Of a stretch of DNA of 64,000 nucleotides, positions 20,504 through 29,131 are shown piece by piece. Source of the stretch: Roseomonas sp. OT10 (GTDB lineage: Bacteria > Pseudomonadota > Alphaproteobacteria > Acetobacterales > Acetobacteraceae); NCBI RefSeq assembly GCF_020991085.1, contig NZ_CP087719.1:2686001-2750000 (forward strand). Reading direction: 5' to 3'. Made by a program: the position numbers and the translations under genes. The notes under the pieces were generated by a model. That model had not been told where the DNA came from. It was given only the letters and a program-made list of their open reading frames with translations, and made no database searches. Positions within the stretch are counted from its first letter, which is position 1. Each line of letters begins with the position of its first letter.

Positions 20504-22894
20504 CTACCGCCCGAGCAGCGCCTGGGCGCAGGCGTCCAGGATGCTGTCCGCATCCAGACCATAGGCCGCGTAGAGGTCGGGGATGTCGCCCGCCTGCCCG
20601 AAGCGGTCCACGCCCAGCGGCACCACGCGCTGCCCGCGCACCGCGCCCATCCAGGCATGCGCCGCCGGATGACCGTCCAGCACCGTCACCAGCGCGGCAT
20701 CGGCCGCCAGCGGGGCGAGCAGGCGCCCGATCGTGGAATCTCCCCCCTCCCCCGTCCGCGCGGCACGCCGGCTGGCCAGCCAGTCCGCATGCAGCCGGTC
20801 CGGGCTGGTGATGGCGAGCAAGCCGGCGCCAGGCTCCTCCTCCGCCAGCAGGTCGAAGGCGGCGCGGGCCTCGGGGGCGACGGGACCCTGATAGGCGATG
20901 GCGAGGCGCGCGCCCGGCGCCGGCGGCACCACCCAGTAGCCGCCGGCCACCACCGCCGCCGGGTCCAGGCTGCGCCGCGGCTGCTCCAGGCCGCGGGTGG
21001 AGAGACGCAGCCAGACCGCCGATCCGTCCGGCACCTGCATGTGCGCGAAGGCCCAGCGCATCAGGATCGCGAGCTCGTCCGCATGCGCCGGCTCGAAGCA
21101 GGCGAGCCGGTCCTGGGCCATGCCCAGCAGCGGCGTGTTGACCGACTGGTGCTGCCCGCCCTCCGGCGCCAGCGTCAGGCCCGATGGCGTGGAAACCAGC
21201 AGGAAGCGGCTGTCCTGGTAGCAGGCGTAGATCAGCGCATCGAGGCCGCGGTTCACGAAGGGGTCGTAGACGGTGCCCACCGGCAGCAGCCGCGCCCCGT
21301 GCAGCCGGTCCGCCAGCCCCAGCGCGCCGAGCACCAGGAACAGGTTCTGCTCGGCGATGCCCAGCTCGACATGCTGCCCCTCCGGCGACATGCCCCAGCG
21401 TTGCGCGCTGGCCAGCTTGGCGTCGCGGAAGACGTCGTTCTTCAGGTGGCGGTCGAAGATGCCGCGCCGGTTCACCCAGGGGCCGAGGTTGGTGGAGACG
21501 GTGACGTCCGGGCTGGTGGTGACGATCCGCCCGGCCAGCGGCGCCATCTCCTCCTGTCCACGCCCGATGCCCGCCAGGATCTCGCCGAAGGCCGCCTGGG
21601 TGGAGAGGCGCCGCCCCTCCGGCACGGACGGCACGGGGAAGCTCTCCGGCACCGGCACGGCGGGGGCGGCGAGGCTGCGGCCCTCGGGCGAGAGCGGGGT
21701 GGCGAAGGGCACGGCGGCGAGGAAGTCGCGCAGCTCCGCCTCGGGGATGTCGAGCCCCTCGAAGGGGTCCCACTCATGCCCCTCGCGGATGTTCATCGCC
21801 ACGCGGAAGGCCTCCATCTGCTCCCGCGTCATCAGCCCCGCATGGTTGTCCTTGTGGCCGGCGAAGGGCAGGCCCATGCCCTTCACCGTATAGGCGATGA
21901 AGCAGGTGGGCTGGTCGCCCTCCGCATCCTGGGCGCGGAAGGCCTCCAGCAGCGTCTCGATGTCGTGGCCGCCGAGATTGGTCATCAGCGCCGCCAGCTC
22001 GTCGTCGGTCAGCGGGTCGAGGATGGCGCGCACCCCCTCCTCGCGTCCCAGCTCGGCCAGCAGCGCGGCGCGCCAGGCGGCGCCCCCCTGGAAGGTCAGC
22101 GCGGCGTAGAGGCTGTTGGGGCAGTCGTCGATCCAGCGGCGCAGCGCCTCGCCACCCGGGCGGGCGAAGGCGGCCTGGAGCTTCCGCCCGTATTTCAGCG
22201 TGACGACGTTCCAGCCCATGTCGCGGAACAGCCCCTCGATCCGGCCGAAGAGGCGGTCGGGGACGACGCTGTCCAGGCTCTGGCGGTTGTAGTCCACCAC
22301 CCACCACACGTCGCGGATGTCGTGTTTCCAGCCCTCCAGCAGGGCCTCGTAGATGTTGCCCTCGTCCAGCTCCGCATCGCCCACCACGGCGACGTGCCGG
22401 CCGCGCGGCATCCCCTCCCGCGCCAGCCCGTGCAGGTGGACGTAGTCCTGTACCAGCGCCGCGAAGGAGGCGAGCGCCACGCCCAGCCCGACGGAGCCGG
22501 TGGAGAAATCCACCTCCGCCCCGTCCTTCACCCGGCTGGGATAGGGCTGGATGCCGCCGAACTGGCGCAGCGTCGCCAGCCGCTCCCGGTCCTGCCGCCC
22601 CAGCAGGTAGTTGATCGCGTGGAAGACCGGCCCCGCATGCGGCTTCACCGCCACCCGGTCCTGCGGCCGCAGCGCGTCGAAGTAGAGCGCGGCGAGGATC
22701 GAGACCGCCGAGGCGCAGGAGGCCTGGTGCCCACCCACCTTCAGCCCGTCCCGGTTGGGCCGGATGTGGTTGGCGTGGTGGATCATCCAGGCGGAGAGCC
22801 AGAGGAGCTTGCGCTCCAGCGCGTGGAGGATCTCCAGGCGCCTGGCCTCGTCGGCGGGGCGGGACAGCGCGCGCGGTCCGGCGGTGACATTCAT
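20504..22894 (-). CDS. Transketolase/AceE-like thiamine-diphosphate enzyme
   Basis: This 796-residue protein resembles the homodimeric pyruvate dehydrogenase E1 (AceE) and transketolase. The N-terminal ThDP domain has HHANHIRPNRDG, KVGGHQASCASAVSILAALYFDALRPQDRVAVKPHAGP and the metal-binding VVGDAELDEGNIYEALLEG. The second domain has TTSPDVTVSTNLGPWVNRRGIF and QHVELGIAEQNLF. A C-terminal transketolase-like domain includes VLDGHPAAHAWMG. It is shorter than AceE (~887), and no E2 or E3 gene is adjacent, so the acceptor and physiological reaction are unclear. The start is supported by GGGGGAGG upstream. It is 96 bases downstream of malonyl-CoA decarboxylase. Confidence 0.85.
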   Translation of the reverse strand: MNVTAGPRALSRPADEARRLEILHALERKLLWLSAWMIHHANHIRPNRDGLKVGGHQASCASAVSILAALYFDALRPQDRVAVKPHAGPVFHAINYLLGRQDRERLATLRQFGGIQPYPSRVKDGAEVDFSTGSVGLGVALASFAALVQDYVHLHGLAREGMPRGRHVAVVGDAELDEGNIYEALLEGWKHDIRDVWWVVDYNRQSLDSVVPDRLFGRIEGLFRDMGWNVVTLKYGRKLQAAFARPGGEALRRWIDDCPNSLYAALTFQGGAAWRAALLAELGREEGVRAILDPLTDDELAALMTNLGGHDIETLLEAFRAQDAEGDQPTCFIAYTVKGMGLPFAGHKDNHAGLMTREQMEAFRVAMNIREGHEWDPFEGLDIPEAELRDFLAAVPFATPLSPEGRSLAAPAVPVPESFPVPSVPEGRRLSTQAAFGEILAGIGRGQEEMAPLAGRIVTTSPDVTVSTNLGPWVNRRGIFDRHLKNDVFRDAKLASAQRWGMSPEGQHVELGIAEQNLFLVLGALGLADRLHGARLLPVGTVYDPFVNRGLDALIYACYQDSRFLLVSTPSGLTLAPEGGQHQSVNTPLLGMAQDRLACFEPAHADELAILMRWAFAHMQVPDGSAVWLRLSTRGLEQPRRSLDPAAVVAGGYWVVPPAPGARLAIAYQGPVAPEARAAFDLLAEEEPGAGLLAITSPDRLHADWLASRRAARTGEGGDSTIGRLLAPLAADAALVTVLDGHPAAHAWMGAVRGQRVVPLGVDRFGQAGDIPDLYAAYGLDADSILDACAQALLGR

Positions 22895-22990: not shown

Positions 22991-24388
22991 TCAGCCCTCC
23001 TTCGCCAGCCGCCGCAACGCGCTCGCCGCGGCGCGCTTGCCCTCGCCGGCATAGGCCTCGTGGTTCTGCTCGATCCGGGCCGGGTCGTAGAGGTAGTTGA
23101 CCATCAGCCCCAGGCTCTCGCGCAGCCCCTTCTCCGACACGTCGCCGCGCGGGTTGATCCGCTCCACCCTGGCGCCGTTGGAGAGGTGGAAATGCGCCAC
23201 CGGGTCCTTGGCCCGCTGGCCGCCGCCCGACCGCTCCTCGATCAGGTAGCGGGCGCAGAGCCGCACCAGCACCGGCTCCGCCACCGCCGCCAGCGGGTCG
23301 CGCAGGGGGTTGCGGCGGCCGAGCATCGCCTGAAAGGCGGCGAGCGCATCGGGCGTGCCCGGCGTGGCCTCCACGATGGCCGCGGCCTCCTCCTCCGTCA
23401 GCAGGGCCGCGCCCTGCTGCTCCAGTGCCGTGTCCAGCCAGCGGCGGAAGCCGGGGATCGGCGAGAGGGTGGCGAAGGTCTTGAGGTTGCGGAACTCGGC
23501 CGACAGCTCCGCCACCACCTGCTTGATCAGGAAGTTGCCGAAGGAGATGCCGTCCAGCCCGCGCTGGCAGTTGTTGATGGAGTAGAAGATCGCCGTGTCC
23601 GTCCCGCGCGGGTCCAGCACCGGCGCCTTCTCGTCCAGCAGCGCCTGGACCGAGCCGGCGAGGCCCTGCACCAGCGCGACCTCGACGAAGATCAGCGGCT
23701 CGGCCGGCATGCGCGGGTGGAAGAAGGCGTAGCAGCGCCGGTCCGAGTCGAGCCGGTTCTTCAGGTCGCGCCAGGTGCGGATGCGGTGCACCGCCTCGTA
23801 GCCGACCAGCCGCTCCAGCAGCGAGGCGGGCGAGGACCAGTCGATCCGCCGCAGTTCCAGGAAGCCCAGGTCGAACCAGCTGGCGAGCAGCCCGCGCAGG
23901 TCGTGGTCCAGCGCCCGCAGCAGCGGGTCCTCCCGCGTGTGGCGCAGCAACTCGGCCCGCAGGTCGACGAGGAACTTCATCCCGTCCGGGATCGAGGTGA
24001 ACTGCGTCAGCAGCCGGATGCGCGGCGGCTCCAGCGCCCGGCGCAGCCCGGCCTTGGCGACGGCGCGCTCCGCCGGGTCCTCGGCCTCGCTGACCCGCTG
24101 CATGGCGGCGCGCACCGCGTCCATGTCGGAATCGAAGCGGGCCAGGGTGCAGAGGAACTCCACCCGCCCCGCCTGGTCCCGCGACAGGTAGTCCTGCGCC
24201 AGCCGCGCCGCGCGCGCCCGGGCGGAGATCTCCCCGCCGCGCCCGCCCAGGCAGGCCCGCATCTGGTCCGCGAGGTCGGGAGGCGCTTCCTCCCGCGACA
24301 CCGTCGCGGCCATGTCGCGCCACAGGTCAGAGACGCGTCGCCAGGCCCGGTCGAAAAAGCCGGATTCCGCGACGGCAACGTCGGACAT
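22991..24388 (-). CDS. Malonyl-CoA decarboxylase
   Basis: Predicted to convert malonyl-CoA to acetyl-CoA and CO2. The 465-residue protein has an N-terminal helical tetramerisation domain (roughly residues 60-170) and a C-terminal GNAT-like catalytic domain. Family segments are TSIPDGMKFLVDLRAELL, YEAVHRIRTWRDLKNRLDSDRRCYAFFHP, IFYSINNCQRGLDGISFGNFLIKQVV, FATLSPIPGFRRWL and VAHFHLSNGARVERINPRGD. The start at MSDVAVAESGF (24388) was chosen with GGAAGGGAAG upstream; the frame runs 21 codons further without a better site. Bacterial homologues (matA/mcd) occur in malonate metabolism, but no malonyl-CoA synthetase is adjacent here. Confidence 0.93.
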   Translation of the reverse strand: MSDVAVAESGFFDRAWRRVSDLWRDMAATVSREEAPPDLADQMRACLGGRGGEISARARAARLAQDYLSRDQAGRVEFLCTLARFDSDMDAVRAAMQRVSEAEDPAERAVAKAGLRRALEPPRIRLLTQFTSIPDGMKFLVDLRAELLRHTREDPLLRALDHDLRGLLASWFDLGFLELRRIDWSSPASLLERLVGYEAVHRIRTWRDLKNRLDSDRRCYAFFHPRMPAEPLIFVEVALVQGLAGSVQALLDEKAPVLDPRGTDTAIFYSINNCQRGLDGISFGNFLIKQVVAELSAEFRNLKTFATLSPIPGFRRWLDTALEQQGAALLTEEEAAAIVEATPGTPDALAAFQAMLGRRNPLRDPLAAVAEPVLVRLCARYLIEERSGGGQRAKDPVAHFHLSNGARVERINPRGDVSEKGLRESLGLMVNYLYDPARIEQNHEAYAGEGKRAAASALRRLAKEG

Positions 24389-24468
24389 GCAGTGCTTCCC
24401 TTCCGCAGTTCGGCGCCCGATTCGGGTCGGTCCTGAAATCCGCGGCAACATACCGTGAGCCCGAAGGC

Positions 24469-25944
24469 TCAGGCCAGGGCTTCCGCCATGGCACGGGGGA
24501 TACCGGCGATCACGTCTTCCGCAACCACCCCCGGCCCGGTCGGGGCGGCGGCCCCATGCACCCAGACGGCGGCGCAGGCGGCCTCGAAGGCAGGCAGGCC
24601 CTGGGACAGGAAGGCGGCGGCGATGCCCGACAGCACGTCGCCCGTCCCGGCCGTGGCCAGGCTCGGCGGGGCATTGGCATTGATCGCCACACGGCCATCG
24701 GGCGAGGCGATGACCGTATCGCTGCCCTTCAGCACGACCACCGCGCCCGTCTCCTGCGCCGCGGCCCGCAGCGCGGCGGGGCGGTCCTCGCCGGGCGGCC
24801 CGAAGACGCGCGCGAACTCGCCCGCATGCGGCGTCAGGATCGCCGCGCCCCGCAGCGCGGCGGGATCGCCGGCGCAGGCGGTCAGGCCGCCGGCATCCAC
24901 CACCACGGGCAAGCCGGAATCCAGCACGGCGCGCAGCAGCTCGCCGGTACGCTCGTCCGCCGCCAGCCCGGGGCCGAGGACCCAGCCGCGCTCCCGCCCG
25001 CCCGCCAGCAGCGCCTGCGCCGGCGGGTCCGCCACGATCAACCCCGCCTCGGCCGTGCCGCGGAGCAGGAAGGCGGCGCCGGGCGAGGTGGCCGCCAGGG
25101 TCACCATGCCCGCCCCCGCACGCCGCGCCGCGGCCGCCGCCAGCCTGGCGGCCCCCGGCATGGACGGCCCCGCCGCCACCACGACATGGCCGCGCGCATG
25201 CTTGTGGGTGGCGGCATCGGGAACGGGCACGCGCCAGAGGGCGGGGCCGTTGGCGAAGCAGTCCAGGCCCAGCCCGGCCAGCACGGCATCCGGCAGGCCG
25301 ATGTCATGGCACTCGACCTCGCCGCACAGCGCCCGGCCCGGCAGCAGCAGATGGCCCGGCTTGCGCCGCACGAAGGTGACGGTCGCCGCAGCCGGAGACA
25401 CCTTCCCACGCGGCTGCCCGGTGGCGCCGTCCAGGCCGCTGGGCACGTCCACCGCCAGGATCGGCCCGCCCGAGGCCGCCAGCACCGCCGCGACCGAATC
25501 ATTGAGCGGTCGCGACAGCCCGGCGCCGAAGACGGCATCGACCACCAGCCGGGCGCGGCCCGCCTCGGCCGCGGCGAAGGGAACCACGGGTCCCCGCCAG
25601 CGGGCGGCGGCGGCCGCGGCGGGTCCTGCCGAAGGCGGCGCCAGGGCGGCCACCGCGACGGGCCAGCCTTCCTGAGCGAGAAGCCGGGCCGCGACCCAGC
25701 CATCGCCGCCATTGTTGCCCGGCCCCACCAGGACCAGGGTCGGACGCGGCCGCCAGCGGCACCGGATGGAACGGGCGACCGCCCGTCCGGCATTCTCCAT
25801 CAGCCGGTCGAGCGGCACCCCGGCGGCCCGGTCGGCGCCGGCGGCCTGCTCCGGCGTCAGCAGCTCGGGACGGAAGCGCTCGCTCCGCGGCTCAGATCCA
25901 GCGGCGCGCCTCGCGGCGGGCGTCCTTGGCAACGACTCGCGCAT
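24469..25944 (-). CDS. nnr: Bifunctional NAD(P)H-hydrate epimerase / ADP-dependent dehydratase
   Basis: Nnr repairs hydrated NAD(P)H: the YjeF_N domain epimerises NAD(P)HX and the C-terminal carbohydrate-kinase-like domain dehydrates it with ADP. The 491-residue protein has LLTPEQAAGADRAAGVPLDRLMENAGRAV, LVGPGNNGGDGWVAARLL and VVDAVFGAGLSRPL (N domain). The C domain has HKHARGHVVVAAG, ILTPHAGEFARVFG, VVLKGSDTVIASPDGRVAINANAPPSLATAGTGDVLSGI. The epimerase signature begins only ~30 residues after the first usable ATG, at 25944. That ATG lies inside the 3' end of the upstream SDR-fusion gene, a 53-base overlap. Confidence 0.93.
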   Translation of the reverse strand: MRESLPRTPAARRAAGSEPRSERFRPELLTPEQAAGADRAAGVPLDRLMENAGRAVARSIRCRWRPRPTLVLVGPGNNGGDGWVAARLLAQEGWPVAVAALAPPSAGPAAAAAARWRGPVVPFAAAEAGRARLVVDAVFGAGLSRPLNDSVAAVLAASGGPILAVDVPSGLDGATGQPRGKVSPAAATVTFVRRKPGHLLLPGRALCGEVECHDIGLPDAVLAGLGLDCFANGPALWRVPVPDAATHKHARGHVVVAAGPSMPGAARLAAAAARRAGAGMVTLAATSPGAAFLLRGTAEAGLIVADPPAQALLAGGRERGWVLGPGLAADERTGELLRAVLDSGLPVVVDAGGLTACAGDPAALRGAAILTPHAGEFARVFGPPGEDRPAALRAAAQETGAVVVLKGSDTVIASPDGRVAINANAPPSLATAGTGDVLSGIAAAFLSQGLPAFEAACAAVWVHGAAAPTGPGVVAEDVIAGIPRAMAEALA

Positions 25945-28117
25945 CGCGAAGCAGGCTACCGCTCCGACCCCGGATTTCATCCACCAGATCCTGGGCCAGC
26001 TGCCGCGCCTCCTCCGCCGTGCGGCGGGCCTGCTTGCGGGTGCGGCGGCTGAACAGGCCGGCGGCCCGGTCCTCCGCCTCATGCAGCAGCGACGCGGCGG
26101 CATCGCGCACCTGCCCGGCGCGGGTGGTGGCCTCCTCGCGGCCACGGCCGAACAGCGACTCGCCGCGTTCGCGCGCCTCCTCCAGCAGGGAGCGGGCGCT
26201 GTCGCGGACCTCGTCGATCCTGGACGCGGCCTGCTTCCGCCCGGCGCGGCCGAAGAGCCAGCTCCCCTGGTCGCGCAGGTCGTCGAGGAAGGTCCAGGCG
26301 GCATTGGCCAGCCAGCTCCCGCGCGACGCGACCTCCCGCCGTCCCTGCCGGGCGAGGGAGCGGCCATGGTCCAGCGCATCCTCCGCGCGATGCCAGCCGC
26401 GGTCGAGCAGCTCCTCGGCATCCTTGCGGCCGCGGCGGAACAGGCCCTGGCCGTGCTCGGCCGCGTCGTCCATGTAGTCGCGCCCCCGGTCCGCCAGGTC
26501 CTCCGCCGCACGGCGGCCCCGCCCGAACAGGCTCCAACCGCGATCCGCCACGTCCTCGGCATAGCCGCGGCCACGCTGCACGGCCGCCTCCGCATCCTTG
26601 CGTCCACGGCGGAACAGGGACCAGCCGTGATCGGCCACCTCCTCCACCTGGCCGCGGCCCCGGTGCAGCGCCTTCCGGGCCTGCTTGCGGCCACGCCGGA
26701 ACAGCGACCAGCCCTCGTCGGCCGCGTCCTCCGCGTAATGACGCCCACGCGCCGCCAGATCCTCCGCGGCGTGGCGGCCGCGATCCAGCATGTCCTCGGC
26801 ATCGCGGTGGCCGCGGCGGAGCCAGCCGCGCCCGCGCGAGGCGGCGTCCTCCGCCAGCCCACGGGCCGCATCGCCCAGGTCGTGGCCGCGGGAGCGGGCC
26901 TCCTGCAACAGCTCCCAGGCGGAGTGCCGCGCCTGCTCGGCCCGTGTCATCGCCCGGCGGGCGGGGCGAGAGCGGAACAGCCCATGCCCGCGCGAGCGTG
27001 CCTCGTCCGCCAGGGCGACGGCCGCCTGCTTCGCCTGCAACGCGGTGGAGCGCGCCTGCTTGCGGGTCTCGCGCCCCACCAGCCGGTCATAGGCGTTGCG
27101 GTTCTGCCGCAGGCCATAGGCCAGCCCGAGGCCGAGCGCCGCCACCCCGACCACCACGCCGGCGGTGCCGAGCGGGTTCATCTGGGCCTCCAGCAGCAGC
27201 GAGGTGCGACGCGGCGCGCCGGCGATGACCCCGCTGGTCTCCGCCAGGTCGGCACGGGGCTCGTAGAGGTTGTCGGCGCGGTCGGCGCGGCGCGGCGTCC
27301 GGGTCGTCTGCGAGGCATAGCCGACCTGCTCCATGACGTAGTCCGTCAGGCGCGGGAAATGGTTCCCGAGCAGGGCGATGGCATAGCCACCCATGCCGAC
27401 CACCAGCGTGCGCGGGGCATATTCGCAGGCGTGCAGGATGGCCCGCCCCACCACGCGGGGATGGTAGACCGGAGGCGGCAGGGTGGGGCTGGGCGCATCG
27501 GTCAGGTTGCGCGCGTGGTCGGGAAACAGGGTGTCCGTCGAGGAGGGCTTGATCAGCGTGACCAGCACGGGATGCCCCCCCTGCTCGAACTCCATGCGGA
27601 AGACGTCGGTGATGCCCTTCACCGCATGCTTCGCGGCGGAGTAGGTGCCCTGGAGCATCATCGCCCGGTCCGACAGCACCGAGCCGACGTTCACGATCAC
27701 CCCGCCGGTCTGCTTGAGATGCCGGGACGCGACCAGCGAGCCGTTCACCACGCCCCAGTAGACCGTGTCGAAGAGCCGCTTCTGGTCCTCCAGCGGCGTC
27801 TCCTCGACCACGCCATAGGTGGAGACGCCGGCATTGTTCACCCAGGAGTCGAAGCCGCCGAAGGCTTCGACCGTCCGGCGGGAGGCCTCCTCCAGCGCCT
27901 TCAGGTCGCCGACATCGGCGACCGCGTATTCCGCCCGCGTGCCGCGTCCGCGCAGCTCGTCCCGCAGGGTGCGCAACGCATCCTCGTTGCGGGCCACCAG
28001 CATCACCGAGGCGCCACGCTCCGCCGCCATGCGCGCGGTGGCGAGGCCGATGCCGGAGGTGGCGCCGGTGATCACGAGGACCTGGTCGCTGATGGGCTTG
28101 AGGCGTGGGCTGGCCAT
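25892..28117 (-). CDS. Short-chain dehydrogenase fused to a membrane helix and a long charged repeat domain
   Basis: This 741-residue three-part protein has an N-terminal SDR domain (1-~290) with VITGATSGIG (residues 15-24), NNAG (94-97), the catalytic Ser in NVGSVLSD (~146) and YSAAK (Tyr159, Lys163). A hydrophobic segment at ~315-336 (GTAGVVVGVAALGLGLAYGL) is probably one membrane helix. Residues 352-741 are a strongly charged Arg/Asp/Glu/Ala repeat domain: two 34-residue units (352-385, 386-419), a run of 29-residue units (421-449, a half unit 450-460, 461-489, 490-518, 519-547, 548-576, ~577-600), then three more 34-residue units (626-659, 660-693, 694-727). The units look like amphipathic helices (xAEDxADxGWSLFRRGRKxAE). 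The SDR part is a normal oxidoreductase of unknown substrate; the tail function is unknown. The start has GCGGAG upstream. Confidence 0.9.
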   Translation of the reverse strand: MASPRLKPISDQVLVITGATSGIGLATARMAAERGASVMLVARNEDALRTLRDELRGRGTRAEYAVADVGDLKALEEASRRTVEAFGGFDSWVNNAGVSTYGVVEETPLEDQKRLFDTVYWGVVNGSLVASRHLKQTGGVIVNVGSVLSDRAMMLQGTYSAAKHAVKGITDVFRMEFEQGGHPVLVTLIKPSSTDTLFPDHARNLTDAPSPTLPPPVYHPRVVGRAILHACEYAPRTLVVGMGGYAIALLGNHFPRLTDYVMEQVGYASQTTRTPRRADRADNLYEPRADLAETSGVIAGAPRRTSLLLEAQMNPLGTAGVVVGVAALGLGLAYGLRQNRNAYDRLVGRETRKQARSTALQAKQAAVALADEARSRGHGLFRSRPARRAMTRAEQARHSAWELLQEARSRGHDLGDAARGLAEDAASRGRGWLRRGHRDAEDMLDRGRHAAEDLAARGRHYAEDAADEGWSLFRRGRKQARKALHRGRGQVEEVADHGWSLFRRGRKDAEAAVQRGRGYAEDVADRGWSLFGRGRRAAEDLADRGRDYMDDAAEHGQGLFRRGRKDAEELLDRGWHRAEDALDHGRSLARQGRREVASRGSWLANAAWTFLDDLRDQGSWLFGRAGRKQAASRIDEVRDSARSLLEEARERGESLFGRGREEATTRAGQVRDAAASLLHEAEDRAAGLFSRRTRKQARRTAEEARQLAQDLVDEIRGRSGSLLRDARVVAKDARREARRWI
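25937..27064 (-). repeat. Coding tandem repeats (34- and 29-residue units) in the SDR fusion protein
   Basis: The DNA encoding residues 352-727 is a tandem array. The 29-residue units (26390-26857) share AED-A---G-SLFRRGRK-A---L-RGR. The flanking 34-residue units share RKQA------A--A-SLL-EA--RG-SLF-R. Units within each class are diverged in sequence but keep exact length, pointing to ancient duplication followed by selection on spacing. One 11-residue half unit (450-460) breaks the register once. Confidence 0.85.
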
Positions 28118-28172
28118 GGAAAGTCTCCGCTCGTCGGGTCGTGAACGCCGCGACGCGACGGAGGTTTGCAGC

Positions 28173-28258: not shown

Positions 28259-29005
<747 letters not shown>

Positions 29006-29131
29006 CACGCGGTTCCTCCTGCGGTTCCAGGACCGGCAGATGGCCCCGCCCCGGCGGCGCGCCAGGGGGGGGCCCGCCTGCATCCCCCCTCCCCCGGCGC
29101 TCCCGCGCGGGGGATCGCCGGAGGCGGCCGG

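Follow-up and report, generated by a model that had tools for sequence, protein, structure and literature searches.

An anchored short-chain dehydrogenase in Roseomonas sp. OT10 with a giant 11-residue repeat tail, a predicted lipid-surface helix

Why would a short-chain dehydrogenase/reductase (SDR) carry a long, highly charged repeat tail beyond its membrane anchor? The question is raised by an open reading frame (ORF) in a stretch of 64,000 nucleotides from Roseomonas sp. OT10 (contig NZ_CP087719.1, positions 2,686,001 to 2,750,000), referred to here as the window. The ORF lies on the minus strand at 25892..28117 of the window, starts with ATG, is intact and encodes 741 residues plus a stop codon. 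A preliminary description had recognized in it an SDR, a membrane helix and a long charged repeat tail, and this is borne out by a match to the NCBIfam family NF005495, a hydrophobic segment at residues 318-336 and a tail that runs to residue 741. The three parts are joined in one frame in all 15 genomes of the window's genus (g1). The architecture is conserved and comes from a known SDR subfamily, the tail being its unusual part. As judged from the sequence, there is an even chance that this tail forms a giant amphipathic helix lying on a lipid surface, with the anchor as its link to the SDR, and lipid binding is predicted.

The repeat unit and its helical period

The tail spans residues 346-741 (396 aa; 25895..27082, minus strand) and contains one proline. 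Charged residues make up 39% of it, 68 acidic against 87 basic, with a net charge of +19 (K+R minus D+E). Across the genus, tails range from 175 to 396 residues and whole proteins from 520 to 741 aa. The strongest repeat in the window tail has a lag of 29 residues, with 71 of 182 positions identical over residues 430-640 (z 13.2, 300 shuffles). Its core is a block at residues 431-600 (26318..26827, minus strand), in which 29 can be written as 11+7+11 and hydrophobicity has a period of 99.2 degrees per residue.

It had been proposed that the tail is built from exact periods of 34 and 29 residues, with 34-residue units placed almost symmetrically at both ends. The 29-residue period stands, but the 34-residue blocks are not exact. 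The N-terminal pair (residues 353-416; 26870..27061, minus strand) is identical at 14 of 30 positions in its best window; at this end lag 34 gives 16/60 identities (z 4.2) and is exceeded by lag 52 (z 5.0). The C-terminal repeats, defined by lag identity (residues 627-741; 25895..26239, minus strand), combine lags of 33 and 34, the former (20/69, z 4.8) ahead of the latter (15/68, z 3.1); the near-symmetry of the flanks is not confirmed. Moreover, a description in two periods overlooks a base unit of 11 residues. Over residues 337-741, lag 11 ranks second among all lags (86/394, z 7.5), and 11 residues is also the basic unit of the congeners.

The genus is split into four members with 29-residue units (L001, which is the window protein, to L004) and 11 with plain 11-residue units (L005-L015). 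Lag 29 leads in the first clade, followed by 58, 40, 69, 11, 33, 51 or 4, while the leading lags of the second are multiples of 11, with 18, 40, 51 and 62 also high in L012. Because 29 = 11+7+11 and 18 = 11+7, both clades are taken to share one building rule. On the sequences compared, the elementary unit of the tail is 11 residues, grouped in the window's clade as 11+7+11.

An iterated profile placed 132 such units in L005-L015, which together account for 57% of the residues in these tails, and 116 of the 121 successive spacings were exactly 11. The resulting consensus, whose percentages lean high as the units were chosen by the profile itself, has R (64%) at position 2, G (92%) at position 3, L (52%) at position 6, Y or F (97%) at position 7, A (92%) at position 10 and R (98%) at position 11. 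On a helix of 3.67 residues per turn, positions 6, 10, 3 and 7 fall into one stripe about 100 degrees wide, with the arginines of positions 2 and 11 at its two sides and mostly acidic positions opposite.

The preliminary description also suggested comparing repeat number between strains. Between congeners, tail lengths vary, and those of eight of the 11 members of the 11-residue clade (206, 217, 228, 228, 239, 250, 283 and 327 residues) are all 8 modulo 11 and differ in 11-residue steps; the other three measure 175, 198 and 198. Slippage of whole units at the DNA level could explain these steps as well as selection.

In the window's 29-residue block, 32 of the 66 residues identical at lag 29 use different codons. 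With half of the identities encoded differently, the protein sequence has therefore been kept while the DNA drifts, and the window repeats look old and maintained at the protein level. The window tail is 32-37% identical to those of its congeners. Recent tandem duplications were found in L008 (55 residues) and L011 (44 residues), where codons are shared at 137/148 and 105/125 identical residues, respectively.

A Fourier scan of hydrophobicity, run on each whole tail with 300 shuffles, gave a helical peak throughout the genus (3.61-3.67 residues per turn). All 11 tails of the 11-residue clade, for which 11/3 corresponds to 98.2 degrees, have their peak between 98.2 and 98.3 degrees (3.66-3.67 residues per turn); in all four 29-residue tails, for which 29/8 corresponds to 99.3 degrees, it lies at 98.8-99.6 degrees. 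Peak power is 15.8 in the window tail and 22.0-45.3 in the other 14, against a shuffle maximum of 13.1. The window block 431-600 taken alone reaches 23.4 at 99.2 degrees (shuffle maximum 11.0), and residues 641-741 reach 13.6 at 97.3 degrees. Proline-free runs of 118-356 residues occur in the genus tails. Amphipathic-helix and coiled-coil predictions had been proposed earlier. The helical peak exceeds all shuffles in every whole tail. The power at the heptad period 7/2 is negligible (at most 1.4 in all 15 tails), and a left-handed heptad coiled coil was dismissed.

When the stripe was defined by nonpolar residues alone, 12 of the 15 tails had their basic residues closer to it than their acidic ones (p < 0.05). 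In a class A amphipathic helix, basic residues sit at the edge of the stripe and acidic ones opposite. As a likeness in working and not in family, the comparison gives a divided picture, since 12 tails lean this way and L001, L013 and L015 do not.

The SDR, its anchor and the spread of the tail

The SDR domain (residues 6-328; 27134..28102, minus strand) belongs to the PRK07109 subfamily, with 336.8 bits to NF005495 against a cut-off of 264, and also matches the Pfam family adh_short. Clavaldehyde dehydrogenase 2jah is the only solved sequence within E 1e-20 of the window protein. SDRs bind their nucleotide through a TGxxxGxG motif and use catalytic S, Y and K residues, which together with an Asn make up the tetrad N-S-Y-K. 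The window protein has TGATSGIG, S146, Y159 and K163, and these three catalytic residues are invariant in 17/17 close relatives (alignment A1) and in 35/35 wider ones (alignment A3, from which L092, with stops, was left out). Residue 119 aligns with an Asn of 2jah that we take to be the fourth tetrad residue. It is Val119 in the window (27761-27763), so the tetrad Asn is absent there. Asn occupies this position in 15/17 close and 28/35 wider relatives, and Val in three of the latter, the window protein included. Asn at 119 is common in the subfamily, not universal, and V119 leaves the PRK07109 assignment standing, although the activity of the window enzyme may be altered.

The anchor is a 19-residue hydrophobic segment, TAGVVVGVAALGLGLAYGL (residues 318-336; 27110..27166, minus strand), with a mean Kyte-Doolittle (KD) value of 1.85. 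Named PRK07109 relatives were read at 60 of 80 loci, the last-listed 20 being left out. Of the complete ones, numbering 59, a C-terminal hydrophobic segment (KD of at least 1.5 over 19 residues, past residue 265) occurs in 44 and is absent from 15. The SDR with its anchor is a widespread subfamily, and what sets the window protein apart is its tail: the named relatives end soon past the anchor, none of the 60 exceeding 390 residues from the match start (one is cut by a contig end), whereas the window protein continues for 396 residues.

Within the genus, the shared order and single open frame of SDR, anchor and tail in 15/15 genomes led to the dismissal of a frameshift or assembly fusion, the artefact that the preliminary description had offered as its own refutation. 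At least four congeners hold in addition a second, tail-less PRK07109 protein (L122, L123, L125 and L147), and L124 of another congener stops early. Beyond the genus, a search for the same architecture turned up extensions in two further lineages, g68 and g164.

Among 200 genomes of the family, 83 contain a match to PRK07109 at E 1e-60. Their C-termini were read in part, from 18 of 20 fetched regions (L162 and L166 gave no row) and 28 of the 30 loci L126-L155 (L144 and L150 being out of frame). Among these, two loci, both of genus g68, carry an 11-residue repeat tail past the anchor (448 aa), and the tailed form was recovered at full coverage in 3 of 21 g68 genomes. Lag 11 ranks first in both g68 tails, with an identity of 0.33-0.34. 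At another locus, L159 (G168:C80), a PRK07109-type SDR frame runs on past the anchor for about 100 residues with a different extension, which gives the impression of being perhaps a small separate domain of monooxygenase type.

A search at E 1e-70 covered 13 genomes of genus g164, which belongs to a different family within the class; nine loci were read (L207-L215), one further match was partial and three genomes were without a match. In all nine, the SDR and anchor are followed by some 50-100 residues of charged extension and then by a further hydrophobic segment (KD 1.52-1.74). The extensions of L207-L210 and L215 have their peak at 98.4-99.1 degrees, a height that 0-2 of 300 shuffles reach. 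L217, from genus g456, resembles this form by eye, its first hydrophobic segment alone passing the KD threshold of 1.5. Counts leave out L184, L188, L218, L219, L221, L223 and L225, which look out of frame, and do not include L220. Extensions thus start at the same point past the anchor in three lineages, namely g1 (15/15 genomes), g68 (3/21) and g164 (nine loci from the 13 genomes searched).

In a tree of 33 SDR sequences, the 29-residue clade (100/99) and the 11-residue clade (94/97) are grouped with the tail-less L160 and L173 (99/95). The branching inside this group fits one gain of the tail within g1 as well as two. The g68 proteins lie far off beside the tail-less L171, with tail-less relatives between them and g1. 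An independent gain in g68 is likely, not proven, given that the tree carries a long-branch warning at the g68/L171 join; the window row was also flagged as long, and g164 is absent from the tree.

Searches with the tails themselves proved insensitive. With the window tail as query, matches came from 2 of 200 family genomes, each belonging to its own genus, and the L008 tail matched seven, five of them outside the genus, while both searches missed the known G003 and G004 tails. Of the L008 matches outside the genus, L115 and L118 were set aside as another short tandem repeat and L119 as an unrelated reading frame; the other two are L116 and L117. L115 and L118 contain long runs of five-residue repeats (ATFSG-type). 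With the L011 tail, the one match in 289 class genomes was the window's own. A PDB sequence search with the tail returned two weak matches (E 0.015 and 0.38), taken as chance. Nineteen plasmid records match; none covers more than 42% of the protein, and every match falls within residues 3-315. In the open literature searched, the combination of an SDR with an 11-residue repeat was not found by titles and abstract starts among the matches listed, nor was any paper found on PRK07109 by name.

A proposed lipid-surface helix and its alternatives

What could such a tail do? It is proposed that a C-terminally anchored SDR of the PRK07109 type gained, beyond its anchor, a giant amphipathic alpha-helix with a steady period. 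On contact with lipid the tail would fold into a long helix, measuring about 26-59 nm across the genus if fully helical, and would lie flat on a membrane or storage-granule surface as the helices of apolipoproteins and perilipin 4 do. The anchor would provide membrane residence, to which the helix would add a long, weak and length-dependent contact. In this way the tail would hold the oxidoreductase at the lipid surface, and it might perhaps cover or stabilise that surface under oxidative or lipid stress. From the redox genes nearby, one may guess at a lipid-derived carbonyl as substrate. At all nine g164 loci read, the extension lies between the anchor and a second hydrophobic segment, an arrangement to be expected if it stays at the membrane.

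To our knowledge, most descriptions of very long 11-residue amphipathic helices concern animal proteins of lipid droplets and lipoproteins. According to PMC5889406, the 11-residue helices of perilipins, alpha-synuclein and apolipoproteins are 3-11 helices, and those of the latter two fold in a lipid-dependent manner. The same source gives hydrophobic moments of 0.257 for Plin4, 0.30 for alpha-synuclein, 0.35 for Plin3 and 0.39 for apoA-I. The genus tails, whose mean hydrophobicity is -0.06 to 0.05, have mean moments of 0.31-0.36 that fall among these values, although they are means over 22-residue windows, calculated from Fauchere-Pliska values and with another program than that of PMC5889406. 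Perilipin 4 is similar in setting an 11-residue unit into longer repeats (33 residues there; 29 or 22/33/44/55 here), in its 3-11 geometry, in its low mean hydrophobicity and in its many tandem copies. It differs in its charged fraction (0.15, against 0.36-0.46 here) and in its aromatic fraction (0.002, against 0.048-0.120 here; PMC5889406). Furthermore, the tail studied here is bacterial, shares its chain with an SDR and a hydrophobic anchor, and does not match a perilipin family.

Profile searches of the 15 tails at E up to 0.5 matched 24 families, with no LEA and no perilipin family among them. The weak matches include YtxH (10/15 tails), Apolipoprotein (9/15), DUF883 (8/15) and Phasin (8/15), and are read as shared composition and period, not as membership. 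Six congener tails (L002, L006, L008, L011, L012 and L013) were also scanned singly against curated cut-offs. Apolipoprotein (PF01442) has a best E of 2.8e-9 among the nine matching tails and does not match that of the window; in the single scans, L002 (35.5 bits) and L011 (15.4 bits) stay below the cut-off of 90 and the other four are unlisted. Apolipoproteins A1, A4 and E resemble the tails in having amphipathic repeats of 11/22 residues and basic residues near the nonpolar stripe (12/15 tails here). They differ in that the best single-scan score here is far below cut-off and that proline is rare in these tails. The apolipoprotein-like, lipid-surface idea of the preliminary description gains support from the 11-residue unit, the one-period stripe and, in 12 of the tails, the basic flanks, as a matter of design, not of ancestry. 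By its pattern and not by homology, the tail would follow the apolipoprotein/perilipin design of a lipid-surface helix.

Several observations weigh against a lipid-surface helix. Within the window tail, residues 346-430 and 601-640 have no helical peak (power 3.4 and 3.1), and the 29-residue tails L002-L004 show a secondary peak in the beta range (9.7-12.5 at 160-180 degrees). The basic-flank test fails for the whole window tail (p 0.17-0.18), L013 (0.15) and L015 (0.21). It passes in window block 431-600 (p 0.012), a block picked after the whole tail had failed, and gives p 0.053 for residues 431-640 and 0.17 for residues 641-741. The 15 genus tails are related and not independent. Outside the genus, the two g68 tails have hydrophobic peaks of 6.1 and 6.5, which fail to rise above every shuffle, and four g164 extensions are unremarkable (L213, L211, L212 and L214, with 13, 86, 96 and 146 of 300 shuffles as high).

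A control on 478 segments of 200 residues, from 169 open frames of the window, adds a further caution. The seven top segments all come from the SDR-tail locus, the next segment scoring 9.8, and its sense frame scores 15.8 and 15.1. Five of the seven, including the two highest, belong to the antisense frame of the gene, and because an antisense frame scores highest, repeated DNA alone can yield a strong peak; the recent tandem duplications in L008 and L011 add to such an origin. The control marks the locus as exceptional without showing selection on the protein. A long plus-strand frame at 25712-28144 was dismissed as the antisense of a homology-supported gene.

The signs on topology also conflict. 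In the 15 genus proteins, the 20 residues past the anchor hold 5-7 K/R, against two ahead of it, and the positive-inside rule would place the tail, not the SDR, in the cytoplasm. The SDR, which has no visible signal sequence, should itself be cytoplasmic, and a single span would then put the tail in the periplasm.

Finally, the stripe positions 3, 6, 7 and 10 also fit the core of a right-handed hendecad coiled coil, the main rival to a lipid-bound helix. Hendecads place their core at positions a/d/e/h, and G, L, Y/F and A of the 11-residue unit are spaced in this way. The SDR would oligomerise and the tail project as a stalk or spacer, like the peripheral-stalk subunit b of ATP synthase, in which a hydrophobic segment is likewise followed by a long hendecad helix. 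The window tail has a weak match to ATP synthase b (E 0.0043, 17.1 bits), and ATP-synt_B is weakly matched by two of the 15 genus tails (best E 0.11) and one g164 extension (17.2 bits, cut-off 28). However, all scores to ATP synthase b families are below cut-off, those of the window tail and the g164 extension far below, and the tail has long Gly-containing units, with Gly (92%) inside the stripe itself. The arginines on both flanks of the stripe should repel identical helices, and the second hydrophobic segment beyond the g164 extension leaves no free stalk there. A hendecad stalk thus seems unlikely, if clearly worth considering.

It is rather improbable that the tail coats intracellular granules of polyhydroxyalkanoate (PHA) or lipid, in which case the protein would be an SDR held on granules by a tail of phasin or perilipin type. 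A class I PHA synthase is over cut-off in all 15 genus genomes, but its presence alone says little. The weak Phasin (PF05597) matches in eight tails would suit a granule coat, yet the scores obtained in the single scans (21.0, 20.6 and 18.1 bits) are below the cut-off of 28.8. Animal lipid droplets do carry an SDR, HSD17B13 (PMC10449848). Against this stands the similar anchor of 44 of the 59 complete tail-less relatives, which come from several phyla.

Still harder to sustain is a stress shield for the membrane, LEA-like or DUF883/ElaB-like, that stays disordered until drying or oxidative stress. The 11-residue units with Gly and the high charge would agree with it, as would the superoxide dismutase (SOD) gene upstream and the NAD(P)HX repair gene downstream. 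ElaB maintains membrane integrity in oxidative stress, according to PMC6389858. The DUF883 family (PF05957; ElaB, YqjD) likewise has a charged helix beside a membrane segment. Two congener tails, L008 (31.9 bits) and L011 (33.6 bits), pass its cut-off of 25.4. However, L006 (25.3) and L012 (14.0) do not, L002 and L013 are unlisted, and DUF883 is not listed for the window tail in the profile search at E up to 0.5; the whole score of a repeat protein is moreover expected to sum its copies. In the SDR-tail protein the order is reversed, the anchor preceding the helix, the tail is much longer and an enzyme domain is attached. A C-terminal anchor past the helix, as in DUF883/ElaB proteins, was not found in the 15 genus tails, in whose remainder the hydropathy over 19 residues reaches 1.01 at most, short of a strongly hydrophobic segment. 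As no LEA family was listed for any of the 15 tails, the LEA-like style that had been suggested is not supported at the level of family. The SOD gene, for its part, was found in the fetched flanks of just three of six relatives.

A repeat expansion under little or no selection, or a tail rich in Arg that binds nucleic acids, in either case with no lipid role, is highly improbable: the fast divergence and variable copy number of the tails and the period seen in antisense frames would fit an expansion, but the tailed frame is retained in every genus genome, lag-29 identities persist through different codons, stripe positions are conserved while others vary, and acidic residues largely balance basic ones.

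Neighbouring genes and significance of the tail

The SDR-tail gene is surrounded by genes in the same direction. Upstream lies a gene for an Fe/Mn superoxide dismutase (28259..29083, minus strand). Downstream, a gene for a protein with YjeF_N and NAD(P)H-hydrate dehydratase domains (24469..25944, minus strand) overlaps or abuts it; from its likely but not certain start at 25944, this gene would share sequence with the 3' end of the SDR gene. Further downstream on the minus strand, malonyl-CoA decarboxylase (22991-24451) and a transketolase/pyruvate dehydrogenase E1-like protein (20504-22894) follow. SOD also adjoins the tail-less relative in locus L180 and lies about 7.6 kb off in L176 and L178, but does not occur in the flanks fetched for L177, L179 and L181. 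The shared neighbour suggests that L016/L180 is a tail-less counterpart of the SDR-tail gene. As a sign of a redox role, this neighbourhood is thin evidence.

Taken more widely, and as a tentative possibility, bacteria of one class, presumably the Alphaproteobacteria, may repeatedly have made a protein that coats membranes out of an anchored SDR, through a giant amphipathic helix grown past the anchor, its length tuned in 11-residue steps and the redox enzyme held flat on a lipid surface. Such a protein would be, by analogy, a bacterial and enzyme-linked counterpart of perilipin 4 or an apolipoprotein. As an SDR the protein is ordinary; if the lipid reading is true, it would be surprising to specialists in lipid-binding helices. 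The tails of 175-396 residues offer a natural length series for studying what governs how a weakly hydrophobic helix binds to bacterial membranes. Why an SDR needs a tail of this kind becomes a question that can be asked, and the PRK07109 subfamily gains a testable membrane role.

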